Shown: in pieces, positions 2,039 through 56,269 of the stretch
Position numbering within the stretch: the stretch's first letter is position 1
Layout: every line of letters starts with the position of its first letter
Made by a program: the position numbers and the translations under genes
Source: Hyphomonas polymorpha PS728
GTDB taxonomy: Bacteria; Pseudomonadota; Alphaproteobacteria; Caulobacterales; Hyphomonadaceae
DNA length: 64,000 nucleotides
Reading direction: 5' to 3'
NCBI RefSeq assembly: GCF_000685315.1
Contig: NZ_ARYM01000006.1
Location: 62,001-126,000, forward strand
Notes under the pieces: generated by a model
What the model was told of the DNA's origin: nothing
Databases searched by the model: none
The model's input: only the letters and a program-made list of their open reading frames with translations

Positions 2039-3020
2039 TTGCGGCAAGGTGGCGCTGTTTGTTCGCCTCCGGAAGGAAGCTCGCGGTGAAACTGTTGCGG
2101 GCAAGCTGGATGAGCTGCTGATCCGAGAGGCCAAGCGCGGCGGCAGTCTGCTCATAGTTGCGGCCGATATAGCCGCCGAAATAGGCCGGATCATCCGAAT
2201 TGACGGTGACGAGAAGGCCCGCTTCGAGCTGGGCTTTTACGGGGCTCTGCTTCAGGTCGTCGATCACGCAGAGCGACAGGTTTGACAGGGGGCAATTGGT
2301 CAGCGGGATCTGCATTTCACGGATCATGCTGACGAGTTCGGGGTCTTCCATGCAGCGGTTGCCATGGTCGATGCGGTCCACGCCGATGTCGAGCAGGGCT
2401 TCGCGGACATAGGAGGGCGGGCCTTCTTCGCCGGCATGCATGCAGAGCTTGAAGCCCAGCTCGCGGCAGCGCTGGTAGAGGCGCTCGAACTTCAGCGGCG
2501 GGTGGCCCATTTCCGAGGAATCGAGACCGACGCCGATGAACTTGTCGTGCCAGGGTTCAGATTGAACCAGAAGGTCAAAGCCGTCCTCTTCGGAGAGATG
2601 CCGCAGGAAACTCATGATGAGATAGGAGCTGATGCCGAGTTCCTGCTCGCCCTTTTTGATGGCGGCAAGGATACCATCAGTGACGACGCCAAAGGGCACG
2701 CCGCGCTCGGTATGAGCCTGAGGATCGTAGAACATCTCGACATGGCGCACATTGTCGGCCTCCGCGCGCTGGAGATAGGCCCAGGTCAGGTCGAAGAAGT
2801 CTTCCTCGGTGCGCAGCACCTGCATGCCCTGATAATAGAGGTCGAGGAATTCTTGAAGGTTGGAGAAGTTGTAGGCGGCCCTGGCGTCTTCCAGCGTCTT
2901 GAAGGGCAGGGTGATCCTGTTGCGCTCGGCCAGCGCCATCATCAGTTCGGGCTCGAAGCTGCCTTCGATGTGGAGGTGAAGCTCAGCCTTGGGTAGGCGT
3001 TGGATCAGATCGGTTTGCAT
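2022..3020 (-). CDS. Adenosine/adenine deaminase family protein, probably adenine deaminase
   Basis: 332 residues from the ATG at 3020; an upstream TTG at 3038 is less likely. It belongs to the zinc amidohydrolase fold that deaminates purines. Metal-site motifs are visible: HLHIEG near residue 16, MHAGEEG near 195, the RIDHGNR block near 220 and NSDDPAYFGG near 275. The start of the family block reads HxHIEGSFEPEL, which fits the adenine deaminase subfamily (adenine to hypoxanthine) better than classical adenosine deaminases, where HLDG is usual. This assignment follows from family knowledge and was not tested. The gene ends head to head with the acidic-protein gene, behind a hairpin, and lies downstream of purQ in the same direction, which fits purine salvage. 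Confidence 0.85.
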   Translation of the reverse strand: MQTDLIQRLPKAELHLHIEGSFEPELMMALAERNRITLPFKTLEDARAAYNFSNLQEFLDLYYQGMQVLRTEEDFFDLTWAYLQRAEADNVRHVEMFYDPQAHTERGVPFGVVTDGILAAIKKGEQELGISSYLIMSFLRHLSEEDGFDLLVQSEPWHDKFIGVGLDSSEMGHPPLKFERLYQRCRELGFKLCMHAGEEGPPSYVREALLDIGVDRIDHGNRCMEDPELVSMIREMQIPLTNCPLSNLSLCVIDDLKQSPVKAQLEAGLLVTVNSDDPAYFGGYIGRNYEQTAAALGLSDQQLIQLARNSFTASFLPEANKQRHLAAIETAA

Positions 3021-3068
3021 TCTGCAAGCATGGCACAATGGGTGCGAGTCAGGAAGGCCCGCCGCCGG

Positions 3069-16292: not shown

Positions 16293-17228
16293 ATGAGTTA
16301 CGACGTCTTTCTGGTGTCTGCTGTAGCAGACCGGGACATTGCCAAGCTGGTGGTGCGCCGTTTGCGATCTCTGAAGTTCCGCGTGGCGTTCAATCAGAGC
16401 CAGGTGGACGAGACTTTTGACCCCAAGGATGCCCGTGACGCGACCAATTCGCAGTCTGTGCTGGTATTGTGGTCCGAGAATGCCGTGAAAAGCGACTGGG
16501 TGAGGGCAGCTGCGTCTGTGGGCAATTCCCGTCCCGGCACACTTATCCAGGCGGCCATCGACAAGACGATCCCCTATGAGCCGTTCCGGCAGGAGAAGCG
16601 GTACTCCATCGAGGGCATGACGTCCCGCAAGACGCCAGAAGGATTTTTCCAGTTAATTGAGGAACTTGGCCGACGGGATGGGCGTACCGACCTGCGCCAG
16701 TGGCTCAGTTTCGGTGCCAAGGATGATGACAAGCGCGCCGACTGGATTGCAGCCCACCCGGCTGATCCGATTGCCGAAGACGCCCGCAAGAAGCGGGAGA
16801 AGGATCTGGGCATCAAGCCCGCGCCGGCGCGCGACGCTATCGGCGCCGCTGCTCTGGCCGCGGCCTCGCTGAAGACCAATGGCACCAAGGCGCCCGTCAT
16901 GCCGGTGGTGACCGCGCCGGTAGCGAGCGCGCAGCCAAATCCGCTGACCGAACTTGGGGCAGGCTGGGGCGCTGTGGCGGCGGTCTCTGCAGCGATTGTG
17001 GGGATGCTGGTGATGGCCTGGGTATTCCGTTCTGAAAGCTCCCCAGAGATGGCTGCGGCCTCCCACGCCATTGCCAATTCCCGCATGGCGACGGTGACGT
17101 GCCCGGCCGGGACGGTGCCGCGGTCATTGCTTTCGGTGCTCGAAACCGGGCCCATCATTGATGACACGCAGCCGCAGATTATCGACGACACAACCGCGCC
17201 AGAAGAGGGCACAGACACGCCGGAATGA
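16293..17228 (+). CDS. TIR-like membrane protein without the catalytic glutamate
   Basis: 311 residues. Residues 1 to about 130 have the TIR pattern: [16 protein letters not shown] at the start, then [16 protein letters not shown] near 56-71. In NAD-cleaving TIR domains a glutamate follows four residues after this Trp (WVRAE); here it is Ala73 (WVRAAA), so NADase activity is unlikely and a binding or adaptor role is more likely. An Ala/Lys-rich linker follows, then one membrane helix (about 225-245) and an outer domain of about 65 residues ending in acidic repeats ([12 protein letters not shown]). The TIR part should face the cytoplasm. It stands alone between ychF and the ATP-synthase genes, with no effector beside it. 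Homologues with similar makeup occur in alphaproteobacteria, as I recall. Confidence 0.75.
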
Positions 17229-17236
17229 TGACACGC

Positions 17237-17284
17237 GCGGACAGGGCGTGGACAAATCCGGACACTTTCGGACATTTCCGGCCA
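17237..17284. repeat. Decamer-phased GGACA repeat, copy 2
   Basis: GGACA occurs at 17239, 17250, 17260 and 17270, at 11, 10 and 10 base steps, ending in CGGACATTTCCGG. That 13-base core is also found on the complement strand inside priA, and with one change in amgK. It lies just after the TIR-like gene stop and just before its terminator. Confidence 0.75.
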
Positions 17285-17340: not shown

Positions 17341-17913
17341 TCAGCTCAGAGCGCGCTCGATTTCGCGGGCCGCAGCCTCAAACTGGTCGACCGACTTTTC
17401 CTCGGCGAGGATACGGCGGGCAGCAGCAGTGGCGGCGTCAGCGGCAGCGCGGCGAACCTCGCTGGCAGCGTCTGCTTCTGCGCGGGAGATGCGCGCAGCA
17501 GCCTGAGCTTCCCGGCGGGAGATCTTCTCGGCGAGGTCACGGCGGGCCTCCTCGAGCATTTCCTTCGCGTCGCGCTTGGCCTGTTCGATGATGGCCTCGG
17601 CTTCCTTGTCTGCGTCCTGAGCGCGGCGTTCGGCCAGCGCAAGGGCTTCAGCAGCCTGCTCGCGAAGGCTGGCAGCCTGCTCGAGTTCGGTGCGAATGGC
17701 CGCAGCCCGGTTATCCAGCCCACCCAGGACGGCCTTGAAGGCCCCCATGCGGGCTGCGATCAGCAGGAAGGTGACCATGCAGAGGAAGGCAACAAACGTC
17801 ACCGGATCCTTTGCGGCATATGCCAGGCCGCCGACGAAGCCACCTTCGGCAGCGTGCGCGAGCGGCGCAGCAGCGAGGGCAGCGATCAGGAAAGAAGCTG
17901 TCTTCTTCATCAT
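17341..17913 (-). CDS. atpF: ATP synthase F0 subunit b
   Basis: 190 residues: a Met-Lys-Lys start, a hydrophobic N-terminal helix, a second membrane stretch (FVAFLCMVTFLLIAAR near 38-53) and a long charged, Ala/Glu-rich coiled region that dimerises in the stator stalk. It is the second of two b-type genes, the usual situation in alphaproteobacteria with b and b'. Its ATG overlaps the stop of b' by four bases. It is the last gene of the F0 operon. Confidence 0.93.
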   Translation of the reverse strand: MMKKTASFLIAALAAAPLAHAAEGGFVGGLAYAAKDPVTFVAFLCMVTFLLIAARMGAFKAVLGGLDNRAAAIRTELEQAASLREQAAEALALAERRAQDADKEAEAIIEQAKRDAKEMLEEARRDLAEKISRREAQAAARISRAEADAASEVRRAAADAATAAARRILAEEKSVDQFEAAAREIERALS

Positions 17914-37170: not shown

Positions 37171-37288
37171 GAAAGGCGTGTCCGTGTTTGCAGGCGCAGT
37201 ATCAGCCTCTATTCCGGCAAAACAAAGGCTTCTCCGGATGAGGGGCCTATCTATCCGGCGGCAAATCCCACAGGAAGTGATCTCACAA

Positions 37289-44709: not shown

Positions 44710-46899
44710 ATGGCCGTTGCCCGAATCCTCTTCACCCTGCCGCTGCCCGAACCGTTCGATTACACGGTGCCGGAAGGGATGGGGCTGGAACCAGGCGCCT
44801 ATGTCGCTGCCCCGGTCGGCCCGTATGACCGGCTGGGCATGGTGGTTGAGGTGCTGGGCGATGAGGTGAGCTCCGGTCGCAAGCTCAAGCCTGTCACGGC
44901 GGTCTATGAGGCGCCGCCCATGGGCGCGCCGATGCGCGAGTTCCTGGCATGGGTCGCCCGCTACACCGTCACCCATCCGGGGCAGGTGCTTGCAATGGCG
45001 CTGCGGGCGCGGGACGGCCTTCTGCCGTCCCCGGTCGAGACCCGCTACCGGCTGACAGGGACTTTGCCCGAGCGGATGACGCCCGCGCGCCAGAAGGTGC
45101 TCGATGTTTACCGGAATTGCCCGGAAATGTCCGGAAACGACCATCTGCTGGCCGCCGCTGACATCGCCGCGGCGGCAAACGTCTCGTCCGGTGTTGTCAA
45201 AGGCATGGTTGAGGCCGGCGCGCTGGAGCCTGTGGAAATCGACAGCGACCCGCCCTTCGCGATCCCCGATCCGGATCTTCCTGGCGCCAGCCTGACGGGC
45301 GAACAGGCCACTGCGGCGGTGGAATTGCGCGCTGCTATCCAACAGGGTGGTTTCTCCGCCTTCCTGCTCGATGGGGTGACGGGATCGGGCAAGACGGAAG
45401 TGTATTTCGAGGCGATTGCCGAAACACTCCGCTCAGATCCTGAAGCGCAGATCCTTGTTTTGTTACCGGAAATTGCGCTGACGCAAGCGATCCTCGCCCG
45501 CTTTCAGGCGCGTTTTGGCGCTGCGCCCGCGCCCTGGCATTCCGGCATGAACCCCAAGGATCGCCGCCGCACCTGGCGTGAGGCTGTCCATGGCCGCGCC
45601 CGCATCGTGATCGGCGCCCGCTCGGCCCTTTTCCTGCCCTACCGCAAGCTGCGCCTCATCATCGTCGATGAGGAGCATGACACCTCCTTCAAACAGGAAG
45701 ACGGCGTTACCTATCATGCCCGCGATCTGGCGGTGATGCGGGCCAAGACGGAAGGCGGGCAGGTGATTCTCGCTTCGGCCACACCTGCCTTGGAAACCGC
45801 TGTAAATGCGGAGGCCGGCCGGTATGTGCGCCTGCGCCTGTCGGCCCGGCCCGGTGCTTCTCGCCTGCCGGATATTGAGCTCGTAGACCTGCGCAAGGCC
45901 CCGCCCGAAAAGGGCAAATGGCTGTCGCCGGTGCTGGAGCGTGCGCTGATCCAGACACTCGCCAATGGCGAGCAATCCCTGCTGTTTCTCAACCGCCGTG
46001 GTTATGCCCCTCTCGTCATCTGCAAAGCCTGCGGGGAAAGGCTGAAAACACCCGGCACCGAAAATTGGCTGACGGAGCACCGCTATTCCGGCCGGCTGGT
46101 TTGCCACGTTACCGGCTATTCCATTCCGAAGCCTGCCAAATGCCCCCATTGCGGCGCAGCTGATTCGCTGATGGGCGTCGGCCCCGGTGTGGAACGGGTC
46201 GCCGAAGAGGTGCGCGTTCTGCTGCCCAACGCCCGGATCGAGATTTTTTCTTCAGATACGGCGCAGGGCGGCGATGCTGTCCGCAGCCTGGTGGAGCGGA
46301 TGGAGCAGGGCGAGATCGATGTGATGATCGGCACCCAGATCGTCGCCAAGGGGCATAACTTCCCGAATCTGACGCTGGTGGGCGTGGTTGACGCCGATAG
46401 CGGCCTCAAGGGCGGCGATCTGCGCGCCGGCGAGCGTACCTATCAGCTACTGAGCCAGGTGGCGGGCCGGGCAGGGCGGGCGGAGCGTCCGGGCCGGGCA
46501 CTGGTGCAGACTTACGCGCCGGATAACCCCGCCATGGAGGCGCTGGCCGCCAATGACCGGGACGGTTTCCTCCAGATCGAACAAGATGTCCGCGCCGAAT
46601 TGGTGCTGCCTCCCTTCGGGCGCCTGGCCGCGATGATCCTGTCTGCGCCGTCGGCAGAACTTGTGGATAAAATCGCCCTCGAAATTGCTGCCGCTGCCCC
46701 CAATGGAGAGGGAATCGAGGTGTTCGGGCCGGCGCCGGCGCCCATCACCGTGCTGCGCGGGCGCCACAGGCGGCGGTTCCTGATCAAAAGCCCCAGAATC
46801 GTGGATCTCTCGGCATATATGACCGCCTGGACAGCGCGCCTGAAACTTCCGGCGCAGGTTCGGATTTCGGTCGATATCGACCCTTATTCTTTTCTCTGA
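44710..46899 (+). CDS. priA: Primosomal replication restart helicase PriA, with altered zinc module
   Basis: 729 residues. PriA reloads the replisome at stalled forks. The Walker A GVTGSGKTEVYFEAI lies near 223-237, the DEAH-type box VDEEHDTSFKQED near 319-331, and the helicase C-terminal block IGTQIVAKGHNFP near 540-552. The zinc module normally has eight Cys for two zinc ions. Here the first pair (CKAC) and last pair (CPHC), which form one site, are present, but at the second site three of four are Thr (LKTPGTENWL, CHVTG). I recall similar sequences in other alphaproteobacteria. A decamer repeat falls in a variable region near residue 138-148. Confidence 0.94.
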   Translation: MAVARILFTLPLPEPFDYTVPEGMGLEPGAYVAAPVGPYDRLGMVVEVLGDEVSSGRKLKPVTAVYEAPPMGAPMREFLAWVARYTVTHPGQVLAMALRARDGLLPSPVETRYRLTGTLPERMTPARQKVLDVYRNCPEMSGNDHLLAAADIAAAANVSSGVVKGMVEAGALEPVEIDSDPPFAIPDPDLPGASLTGEQATAAVELRAAIQQGGFSAFLLDGVTGSGKTEVYFEAIAETLRSDPEAQILVLLPEIALTQAILARFQARFGAAPAPWHSGMNPKDRRRTWREAVHGRARIVIGARSALFLPYRKLRLIIVDEEHDTSFKQEDGVTYHARDLAVMRAKTEGGQVILASATPALETAVNAEAGRYVRLRLSARPGASRLPDIELVDLRKAPPEKGKWLSPVLERALIQTLANGEQSLLFLNRRGYAPLVICKACGERLKTPGTENWLTEHRYSGRLVCHVTGYSIPKPAKCPHCGAADSLMGVGPGVERVAEEVRVLLPNARIEIFSSDTAQGGDAVRSLVERMEQGEIDVMIGTQIVAKGHNFPNLTLVGVVDADSGLKGGDLRAGERTYQLLSQVAGRAGRAERPGRALVQTYAPDNPAMEALAANDRDGFLQIEQDVRAELVLPPFGRLAAMILSAPSAELVDKIALEIAAAAPNGEGIEVFGPAPAPITVLRGRHRRRFLIKSPRIVDLSAYMTAWTARLKLPAQVRISVDIDPYSFL
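45121..45152. repeat. Decamer-phased repeat inside priA, copy 3
   Basis: CCGGAATTGC, CCGGAAATGT and CCGGAAACGA follow directly, a 10-base tandem. The complement reads TTTCCGGACATTTCCGGG, which shares CGGACATTTCCGG with the copy after the TIR-like gene. It keeps the priA reading frame, within a region that is poorly conserved in the family. Confidence 0.72.
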
Positions 46900-54729: not shown

Positions 54730-55185
54730 ATGGCGACAACTTTCGATCTTGCGGATGAGGCGGCGACGCTGGCGCTGGGGGGGGCACTGGCCAAGATCCT
54801 GCGCGCAGGCGATTTCGTAGCCCTGCATGGCGACCTCGGCGCGGGCAAGACGACCCTGACGCGCGGGCTGATCCAGGCCCTGCTGGGGGAGGGGGAAGAG
54901 GTGCCGAGCCCTACTTACACACTGGTCCAGGTTTATGAGGGGCCAGACTTTCCGCTCTGGCATTTCGACCTCTACCGGCTGGATGATCCAGACGGGGTAG
55001 AGGAGCTGGGTTGGGATGATACGGTCGAGGGGGCGGCTCTGGTGGAATGGCCGGAGCGGGCCGGACGGCACTTGCCGAAGCAGCGTCTGGACGTGTTGCT
55101 TGAAATTCAGGGCGATCAGCGCCGGGTGAGGCTGGAACCGAGGGGCGAAGGCTGGCAGGAACGGCTGCATGGATTCAGCCTCTGA
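54730..55185 (+). CDS. tsaE: tRNA threonylcarbamoyladenosine synthesis ATPase TsaE
   Basis: 151 residues. P-loop GDLGAGKTTLTRGLI near 36-50, PSPTYTLVQVYEG near 62-74 and the WHFDLYRLDDP block near 79-89 identify TsaE, which powers the TsaBD complex in the t6A modification of tRNA. The start ATG at 54730 fits the family. The 3' end overlaps the kinase gene by 17 bases. tsaE next to amgK is a grouping I recall from Caulobacter and pseudomonads. Confidence 0.96.
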   Translation: MATTFDLADEAATLALGGALAKILRAGDFVALHGDLGAGKTTLTRGLIQALLGEGEEVPSPTYTLVQVYEGPDFPLWHFDLYRLDDPDGVEELGWDDTVEGAALVEWPERAGRHLPKQRLDVLLEIQGDQRRVRLEPRGEGWQERLHGFSL

Positions 55186-56269
55186 CTCGCGCACGCATGA
55201 GATTGACCGGTTCCTCGCCAACGTGGGCGATGGATGGGACCGGGCAAATCGCAAATCCCTTGGCCAGGATGCTTCGACCCGCCGCTATATCCGCCTCCTC
55301 AGAGAAGATGGCGCCAGCGCCCTGCTGATGGACGCGCCGAGGGTTGAGGATGATCCCTGCCCGCCGGAGGCTGACCGGGCATTGCGCGAGAAAATGGGCT
55401 GGAACGCGATGACGCGGTTGGCGGCCTCGCGTGTCGAGGCGTTCGCGCTGATTGCCGGGCATCTGCGCAGCCTGGGGCTGGAAGCGCCGGAGGTATATGC
55501 GTTCGATCCGGCGCAAGGCTTTGCGCTGATCGAGGATTTTGGCGAGGGGCGCGAGTTTGCCCGGATGATTGAGCGGGGCGAGGCGGACGAGCAGACGCTT
55601 TACCGCGCGGCCGCAGAGACGCTGGCACTTCTCCACGCGGCGCCGGTGCCGCAGCGGCTTGAAAAGGATGGGATTGTCTGGCCGATCCTGGACTTCGACG
55701 CGGTCGCGCTGGGGGCCAATGCCGATCTTTATGCTGACTGGTTGCCGCTGGAAGCGGGCGGAACCAAGCTGACAGGCGCAGCGCGGGCGCGCTGGGAGGC
55801 CGAGCGGAACGCGCTGATCGGAAAAGCCATGTCTTTTCCGAGGGCTTTCACGCTGCGGGACTATCATGCGGAAAATCTGCTGTGGTTGGCGGGTGGCCGG
55901 GTGGGTCTTCTGGACTTTCAGGACGCGGTGCGCGGCTGGGACGCCTGGGACATGGCAATGCTGACCCAGGACGCGCGCAGAGCCGTCTCAGCGGCGGCAG
56001 CGGAAGACGCCATCCGGACATTTCTGGACAAAACCGGACAGGACCGGACGGATTTTGAGGAGCGGTTGGCCGTAATCGGCGCCCTCAATGCCTTGCGGAT
56101 TGCGGGTGTCTTCTCCCGCCTGCAGCATCGGGACAAGAAGCCCCGTTATGGAGAGTTCCAGCCCCGGCAGCTTTCCATCCTCGCCCGTAATCTGGCCCAC
56201 CCTTCGCTGGCAGGCATGCGGGCGTTCGTCATGGAGCAGACCCCCTTCGTATTTGAGGCCAAGGCATGA
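55169..56269 (+). CDS. amgK: Anomeric N-acetylmuramate/N-acetylglucosamine kinase AmgK
   Basis: 366 residues. An aminoglycoside-phosphotransferase-like fold: an N-terminal nucleotide-binding region, LRDYHAENLLWL near 230-241 with the catalytic Asp, then LLDFQDAVRGWDAWDMAML near 248-266. AmgK phosphorylates MurNAc at the anomeric carbon so that MurU can make UDP-MurNAc; the pair gives a recycling route that bypasses fosfomycin-sensitive MurA. It overlaps tsaE and murU. A decamer repeat (56013-56052) lies in its 3' half. Confidence 0.92.
   Translation: MDSASDSRTHEIDRFLANVGDGWDRANRKSLGQDASTRRYIRLLREDGASALLMDAPRVEDDPCPPEADRALREKMGWNAMTRLAASRVEAFALIAGHLRSLGLEAPEVYAFDPAQGFALIEDFGEGREFARMIERGEADEQTLYRAAAETLALLHAAPVPQRLEKDGIVWPILDFDAVALGANADLYADWLPLEAGGTKLTGAARARWEAERNALIGKAMSFPRAFTLRDYHAENLLWLAGGRVGLLDFQDAVRGWDAWDMAMLTQDARRAVSAAAAEDAIRTFLDKTGQDRTDFEERLAVIGALNALRIAGVFSRLQHRDKKPRYGEFQPRQLSILARNLAHPSLAGMRAFVMEQTPFVFEAKA
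56013..56052. repeat. Decamer-phased GGACA repeat inside amgK, copy 4
   Basis: GGACA at 56016, 56026 and 56036 and GGACG at 56046, all exactly 10 bases apart. The start CCGGACATTTCTGG differs by one base from the core CCGGACATTTCCGG on the complement strand of priA. It codes for part of AmgK near residues 282-295 in frame. Confidence 0.72.

Follow-up and report, generated by a model that had tools for sequence, protein, structure and literature searches.

The genome of Hyphomonas polymorpha PS728, a member of a genus of stalked marine bacteria, carries short arrays in which the pentamer GGACA recurs once per turn of the DNA helix, at a density of about one array per 35 kb. We propose, at a probability of roughly 0.6, that they are dispersed multivalent binding arrays for a predicted sequence-specific DNA-binding protein with a chromosome-wide role. 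Most of the doubt attaches to the role.

Three arrays lie in the window, by which we mean the whole 64,000-nucleotide stretch that was analysed, positions 62001-126000 of contig C6. The unit they repeat consists of GGACA and, after it, 5 or 6 spacer bases that are free to vary; it is not the longer word CCGGACATTTCCGG. Array 1 (17229..17284, plus strand) reads TGACA-GGACA-GGACA-GGACA-GGACA-GGCCA in steps of 10, 11, 10, 10, and 10 bases, with exact GGACA starting at 17239, 17250, 17260, and 17270. It begins immediately 3' of the stop codon of a TIR-domain protein gene (16293..17228, plus strand; PF13676 at 27.0 bits against a cut-off of 28, a weak match) and is followed directly by a terminator-like hairpin, judged by eye. 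The convergent gene downstream encodes an ATP synthase subunit B/B' (17341..17913, minus strand; PF00430), and the TIR-domain gene is in this way a neighbor of ATP synthase genes. Array 2 (45118..45142, minus strand) runs antisense inside priA (44710..46899, plus strand; PF17764, PF18074, PF00270). It is worn and shortened from a three-decamer array: on the minus strand it consists of GGTCG, a two-mismatch unit recognized by eye (45142-45138), GGACA (45132-45128), and GGGCA (45122-45118), and its orthologue in one relative, G008, has three clean units. Array 3 (56016..56050, plus strand) lies in the sense orientation inside a phosphotransferase gene (55169..56269, plus strand; PF01636, APH), which we take to be amgK from the original prediction and from gene order. 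Its units follow in 10-base steps, GGACA at 56016, 56026, and 56036, then GGACG at 56046.

The original prediction had named a family of 10-base-phased repeats at four loci. The loci at 17.2 kb, in priA, and in amgK belong to it, while the degenerate form cited at 1245, which reads GGCCA-N5-GGGCA and has no exact GGACA, is only a candidate member. A weaker candidate at 37214-37254 lacks the GGACA unit, steps by 20 bases, and is not a member. The 13-mer CGGACATTTCCGG is, as had been noted, identical at the 17.2 kb and priA loci. Allowing up to two mismatches, it has 15 matches in the window compared with 2.7 expected, a number reached by 0 of 100 shuffles, and genome-wide there are 12 exact copies of it and none of the reversed control word. 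Reading frames stay open across the arrays inside genes, as had also been proposed.

At the scale of the genome, GGACA-N5-GGACA occurs at 201 places in the 4.05 Mb H. polymorpha draft, compared with 7 for the reversed control. Pair counts in this and the other genomes contain about 7 chance pairs, and 200 of the 201 places fall into about 111 clusters. In the relative G016, the triple pattern (with the middle base of the first spacer set to Y) is found 130 times and the quadruple 72 times, each against 0 in the control. Among pentamers with at least 8 occurrences at a 10/11-base step, GGACA/TGTCC has the greatest excess (43 seen, 1.2 expected) in 400 kb of H. polymorpha DNA that make up most of contigs C3 and C8 and were picked knowing that arrays are present there. 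In the C3/C8 DNA and the window, the distances from one GGACA to another peak at 10/11, 20/21, 30/31, and 41 bases, every other distance occurring at most 4 times, and the suspected 10-base helical phasing is borne out.

Array build is loose around this fixed element. In a set of 80 arrays, with one mismatch allowed, units number 2-11 per array, with a mode of 4-5, and the steps comprise 228 of 10 bases and 76 of 11, ties being assigned to 10. The 5-base spacers prefer N-W-T-C-C, and AATCC is commonest (45 of 228), a preference favored by the choice of part of the set with a loose spacer rule, N-W-H-Y-N; the 6-base spacers of the set have no clear preference. GGTCA and TGACA are the main unit variants. 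By eye, flanks and spacers differ between array copies, and what the copies have in common is GGACA, its phase, and the loose spacer preference. Spacer dialects moreover differ between species. A literature search with the 13-mer and six 15-mers returned no paper holding these motif words.

The arrays are placed with little regard for promoters. Gene calls behind this and the neighbor and skew results below come from a home-made codon-usage scorer. We sorted 70 arrays with roughly three or more units, from 1.08 Mb of H. polymorpha DNA that was mostly picked from around arrays. Genes account for 915 kb of that DNA and contain 30 of the arrays; tandem gaps (80 kb) contain 24, convergent gaps (16.6 kb) 9, and divergent gaps (43.4 kb) 6, and 1 array is unassigned. 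Per base, gaps hold 8.5 times as many arrays as genes do; among gaps, the convergent class is the richest and the divergent class the poorest. Of a set of 66 arrays defined at the pair level, 36 are genic, with 23 in the sense and 13 in the antisense orientation, and the 30 intergenic ones cover all four gene arrangements. No gene-function theme was seen by eye among the neighbors of these 66 arrays.

Along the chromosome, the arrays of H. polymorpha are spaced slightly more evenly than random (CV 0.73; null 95% range 0.74-1.14), and the CV in G016, from a partial array list and given here with no null, is 1.01. Neighboring arrays point the same way in 51 of 79 cases in H. polymorpha (39.5 expected, p 0.005) and in 34 of 61 in G016 (p 0.19). 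Mapping around the origin and terminus, which had been proposed, reveals no clear ori-ter design by hand count on the single contig of G016. Of 46 arrays with at least 4 units, 16 lie between 1.3 and 2.4 Mb, 22 in the mid-arms, which total 1.6 Mb, and 8 in the 1.0 Mb around the origin. The KOPS-type word GGGNAGGG is strongly strand-sorted on this contig, C1, and flips at about 1.67-1.85 Mb, the likely terminus, near which arrays are sparse. The interval 1.40-1.87 Mb, which spans the flip, holds 1 array compared with about 6 by mean density, and other gaps of about 300 kb exist.

Orientation has a further correlate. Around 52 of 66 arrays in H. polymorpha, 19 of 24 in G008, 12 of 16 in G023, and 9 of 12 in G016, the strand with GGACA is also the G-rich one, and the skew is carried by third codon positions. 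The KOPS-type word is sorted by contig, and by hand count 28 of the 66 arrays agree with it, a lean toward the opposite strand. Counted around the H. polymorpha arrays, the word occurs 67 times on the same strand and 136 times on the opposite strand; around the longer arrays of four species the corresponding ratios are 30:79, 34:49, 18:29, and 10:13. A strand polarity read from GC skew looked directional and was set aside: the array-free relative G014 has the same skew profile at its mraZ-region site and near the position of array 3, though not downstream of array 1. Given that the profile is shared with G014, most of the skew seems to predate the arrays. Most simply, arrays would arise more readily on whichever strand is already richer in G than in C. 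We estimate that a skew of 0.1, a G/C ratio of about 1.2, would translate into an approximately 2.4-fold orientation preference over 4-5 units. As a separate observation, GC skew at third codon positions swings by as much as about 0.4 over distances of tens of kb, independent of gene strand and of KOPS orientation, and the swing is largely common to the array-free relative (66 arrays, with the window and the mraZ region in relatives).

Arrays in number are restricted to a small group of species. Our survey covered 101 genomes from the genus, its family, and its order, including that of H. polymorpha itself, and a large excess of pairs exists only in H. polymorpha, or G000 (201), and in G008 (281), G016 (285), and G023 (309). 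The excess is small in G031 (34 compared with 7 in the control) and G040 (36 compared with 3), and G030 has 7 pairs compared with 1. The remaining surveyed genomes have 0-12 pairs, close to their controls. Within the 42 genomes of the genus, of which only six are single contigs (G016, G019, G020, G036, G040, and G041), the excess is confined to one clade of seven species, four with high counts and three with worn arrays: G030 (in priA only), G031, and G040. In a PriA tree of 29 genus members, the seven species form one clade with support 100/98. Within it, G030, G031, and G040 fall on three different branches, which calls for three changes on the tree as a whole and for two when only well-supported branches are counted. 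PriA of G030 is 95% identical to that of H. polymorpha.

Comparison of orthologous sites reveals how arrays arise and wear. In priA, the seven clade species carry a 30-nt in-frame insert of three decamers, of which 21 nt remain in H. polymorpha. The insert is absent from the other 23 of the 30 PriA orthologues compared (39 genomes had a match), G035 being kept in this 30-row comparison and omitted from the tree. The TGTCC period in priA is clear in G008, G016, and G023, worn in H. polymorpha, and decayed in G030, G031, and G040. The amgK array aligns gaplessly to the array-free G014 and G021, and the protein remains similar; we therefore infer that this array was made by substitutions. Thus, the proposed check of orthologues had two outcomes: the priA segment is a clade-limited insert, and the amgK segment is a set of point substitutions and not an insert.

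Positions are partly stable. All three window arrays occur at the same places and in the same orientations in G008, G016, and G023, where the window region has a nucleotide identity of 83-91% among the compared species, and no other pair-bearing arrays were found in those orthologous 60-kb stretches. The orthologues of array 1 have other spacers in G008, G016, and G023; the array is worn in G031 and gone in G040, and G030 is not covered there. H. polymorpha, G008, G016, and G023 have a fourth site in common, with differing unit numbers, which lies between an AbrB-type gene and the conserved gene upstream of it; in G040 its array is worn. G014 and G021 also have AbrB-type genes; no array precedes them, and their upstream neighbor is a different one. 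In the mraZ region, G016 and G023 have two arrays in common. A relic of the first persists in G040. The DNA of G014 extends over the second site alone and is array-free there, and that of G021 extends over neither. Two further pair-level arrays of G016 in this region are missing from G023. More broadly, among the loci listed, H. polymorpha has its own array at the orthologous site of 12 of 14 testable G008 arrays and of 4 of 8 testable G023 arrays. Thus, with half of the testable G023 sites lacking an H. polymorpha array, positions turn over. The tilS arrays, for their part, seem to lie at different places in the two species compared. Whole units are also gained or lost between orthologous arrays, as in priA and at the fourth site.

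Letter by letter, the parts of an array change at different rates. GGACA units are 97% identical between H. polymorpha and G008 and 93% identical between H. polymorpha and G023, flanks are 87% and 78% identical, and spacers 83% and 45%. These sets comprise 17 arrays for G008 and 7 for G023, with gapped letters set aside (36 and 16 in units, 23 and 14 in spacers). By this alignment measure, which uses units defined in one species and is somewhat biased in the units' favor, units are kept better than their surroundings, and in the more distant pair spacers are kept much worse.

Because GGACA is kept once per helix turn while spacers are free and no rule of frame or strand applies, we infer that the arrays are read by an oligomeric protein. 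The notion is that the predicted protein would dock one subunit per GGACA, head to tail, on one face of the helix. Docking of this kind would explain why steps are of 10 or 11 bases, why spacers are free, and why arrays differ in unit number. The job would be chromosome-wide, most likely organizing or marking the chromosome and not controlling individual genes; a structural or uptake role is put forward solely because other roles are excluded. Ordinary selection could maintain the arrays, as could a drive of the kind that biased DNA uptake would exert. That three species closely related to array-bearing ones have worn arrays suggests that the reader is dispensable, and species that lose it would let their arrays decay. 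The original prediction, which offered binding-site arrays for a DNA-packing or segregation protein, holds in outline (helix phasing, placement indifferent to promoters, GGACA kept while spacers change); its binder and its packing or segregation role stay putative.

Two families were considered as the binder. MraZ was rejected: each of ten genomes has one mraZ gene, its presence does not track the arrays, the protein is near-identical in array-bearing H. polymorpha and array-poor G030, and the mraZ boxes are normal GCCCA. An AbrB/MazE-family protein encoded beside an array at C13:76720 was rejected as well, since like proteins are found not only in G008, G016, and G023 but in G030, where arrays are few, and in G014, which has none. 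Among these families, MraZ and AbrB/MazE-type, none matches the presence of arrays. Given that the arrays are worn in G030, which is close to array-bearing H. polymorpha, the responsible gene should be findable by gene content.

Other explanations share parts of this evidence. The arrays could be a DNA-uptake or transfer signal, such that a receptor or packaging protein prefers phased GGACA and arrays spread through biased uptake and recombination, a form of drive. Creation of arrays by substitution inside a gene (amgK), the preference for convergent gaps, neighbors with no theme of function by eye, worn arrays on three branches, and species-specific spacer dialects are all consistent with it. 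We nonetheless judge it unlikely: one array per 35 kb is far sparser than known uptake sequences, which occur about once per kb; positions are largely shared in the window region at 83-91% identity, though in only 4 of 8 cases in the other G023 test; and a literature search found no paper pairing Hyphomonas with natural transformation. Alternatively, the arrays could be the operators of a regulon, with an OmpR/PhoB-like or MraZ-like transcription factor binding tandem boxes. OmpR/PhoB-type regulators bind direct repeats spaced about 11 bases apart, and the MraZ boxes of the same genomes are built alike, with three GCCCA separated by 5-base spacers upstream of mraZ. Such a regulon is improbable, however, when 30 of 70 arrays lie inside genes, when divergent gaps, which hold promoters, are poorest and convergent gaps richest, so that sites are not concentrated upstream of start codons, and when array orientation relative to neighbors is mixed. 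A single mraZ gene in each of ten genomes, and a MraZ near-identical between H. polymorpha and array-poor G030, argue further against a MraZ-like regulator.

Scattered copies of a small mobile or insertion-made repeat, whether RPE/MITE-like or the product of repeat-adding polymerases, could instead be decaying in place, as the original prediction had allowed. The 30-nt priA insert of three decamers is the case in its favor, together with the gain or loss of whole units between orthologues. However, no shared flanks or ends were seen by eye, flanks and spacers differ between copies, sites are common to several species, and the amgK array came without an indel. Moreover, GGACA is kept better than the flanks while spacers have changed more than the flanks, a pattern that decay cannot give, and we hold this account to be quite improbable. 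The least probable of the alternatives, and one to which we give very little weight, is a strand-directed Chi- or KOPS-like site read by a moving enzyme. It would fit the G-rich GGACA strand around 52 of 66 arrays, repeated in three relatives, and the more frequent KOPS-type words on the opposite strand. Yet the lean per array is weak (28 of 66 in agreement with the KOPS-type word, by hand count), the array-free G014 has the same asymmetry at its covered mraZ-region array site, such that the skew is older there, and local base skew alone would by our estimate suffice for the lean in orientation. Overall, the findings fit binding arrays that selection or drive maintains better than they fit a mobile repeat or a promoter regulon.

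A more ambitious form of the binding-array reading is possible, if doubtful: the approximately 110 GGACA arrays per chromosome, one per 35 kb, may constitute an undescribed chromosome-marking system read by a putative non-essential oligomeric protein. The worn arrays on three branches of the seven-species clade suggest that its reader has been lost more than once. If true, the arrays would label the cell's own DNA to be taken up, protected, or folded. That five letters in every helix turn are constrained across the genome, even in the middle of a gene such as priA, implies a strong predicted DNA-reading activity in bacteria already used for cell biology.

Arrays of similar appearance occur outside the order. 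In 12 genomes of Chloroflexota, Planctomycetes, and Verrucomicrobia, preselected for holding the triple pattern, there are 15-92 pairs compared with 2-13 in the control (for example, 50 vs 5, 88 vs 4, 59 vs 2, and 92 vs 13); they are Chloroflexota MAGs (L104, L110, L184, L167, L203), Dehalococcoidia (L130, L137, L156), Verrucomicrobia (L136, L107), and Phycisphaerae (L127, L201). Eight Polyangium and archaeal genomes, preselected in the same way, have 4-23 pairs compared with 0-5. Spacers in the 12 genomes are in part AATCT/AATCC-like. In Chloroflexota, several copies share a 3' flank of about CGCACGATCC-CAG, and at one Verrucomicrobia locus the arrays form inverted arms. Because the genomes were preselected and because of these shared flanks and inverted arms, we claim likeness and not kinship. 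An Rfam search of eight of the loci gave no match. Were the chromosome-marking reading true, like spacers in other phyla would mean that the system recurs across phyla. On the viral side, 75 contigs hold the triple pattern, with one match each except for L288, an IMG/VR contig with three triple-GGACA matches at 2766-3035; tandem decamers made by slippage probably raise the baseline of viral contigs.

Several known systems resemble the GGACA arrays in part. Like the DUS of Neisseria and the USS of Haemophilus, the arrays are dispersed short words in and between genes, with species dialects and possible drive. Unlike them, the arrays are helix-phased and tandem, tens of times sparser, and without a known link to competence. 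The matS/MatP, NBS/Noc, and SBS/SlmA systems likewise have tens to about a hundred chromosome-wide sites, both genic and intergenic, but each of their sites is a single palindrome, and their map is biased to the ori or the ter, whereas GGACA forms direct-repeat arrays with no clear ori-ter map. ParR/parC and RepA iterons are similar in that oligomers read direct repeats phased at about 11 bases, but they are confined to one locus per replicon, in contrast to the approximately 110 dispersed GGACA arrays. FtsK KOPS and Chi have a leading-strand bias, which the arrays fail to display, with 28 of 66 agreeing and a lean to the opposite strand. Finally, the nearest relative in build, by resemblance only, is the MraZ operator, which in these bacteria takes the form GCCCA-N5-GCCCA-N5-GCCCA upstream of mraZ and is conserved in the nine genus genomes viewed (among L342-L351). 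Both are direct repeats of a 5-base box and a 5-base spacer with a 10-base step; the MraZ box is GCCCA and not GGACA, and it marks a single regulatory site where GGACA marks about 110 dispersed arrays.
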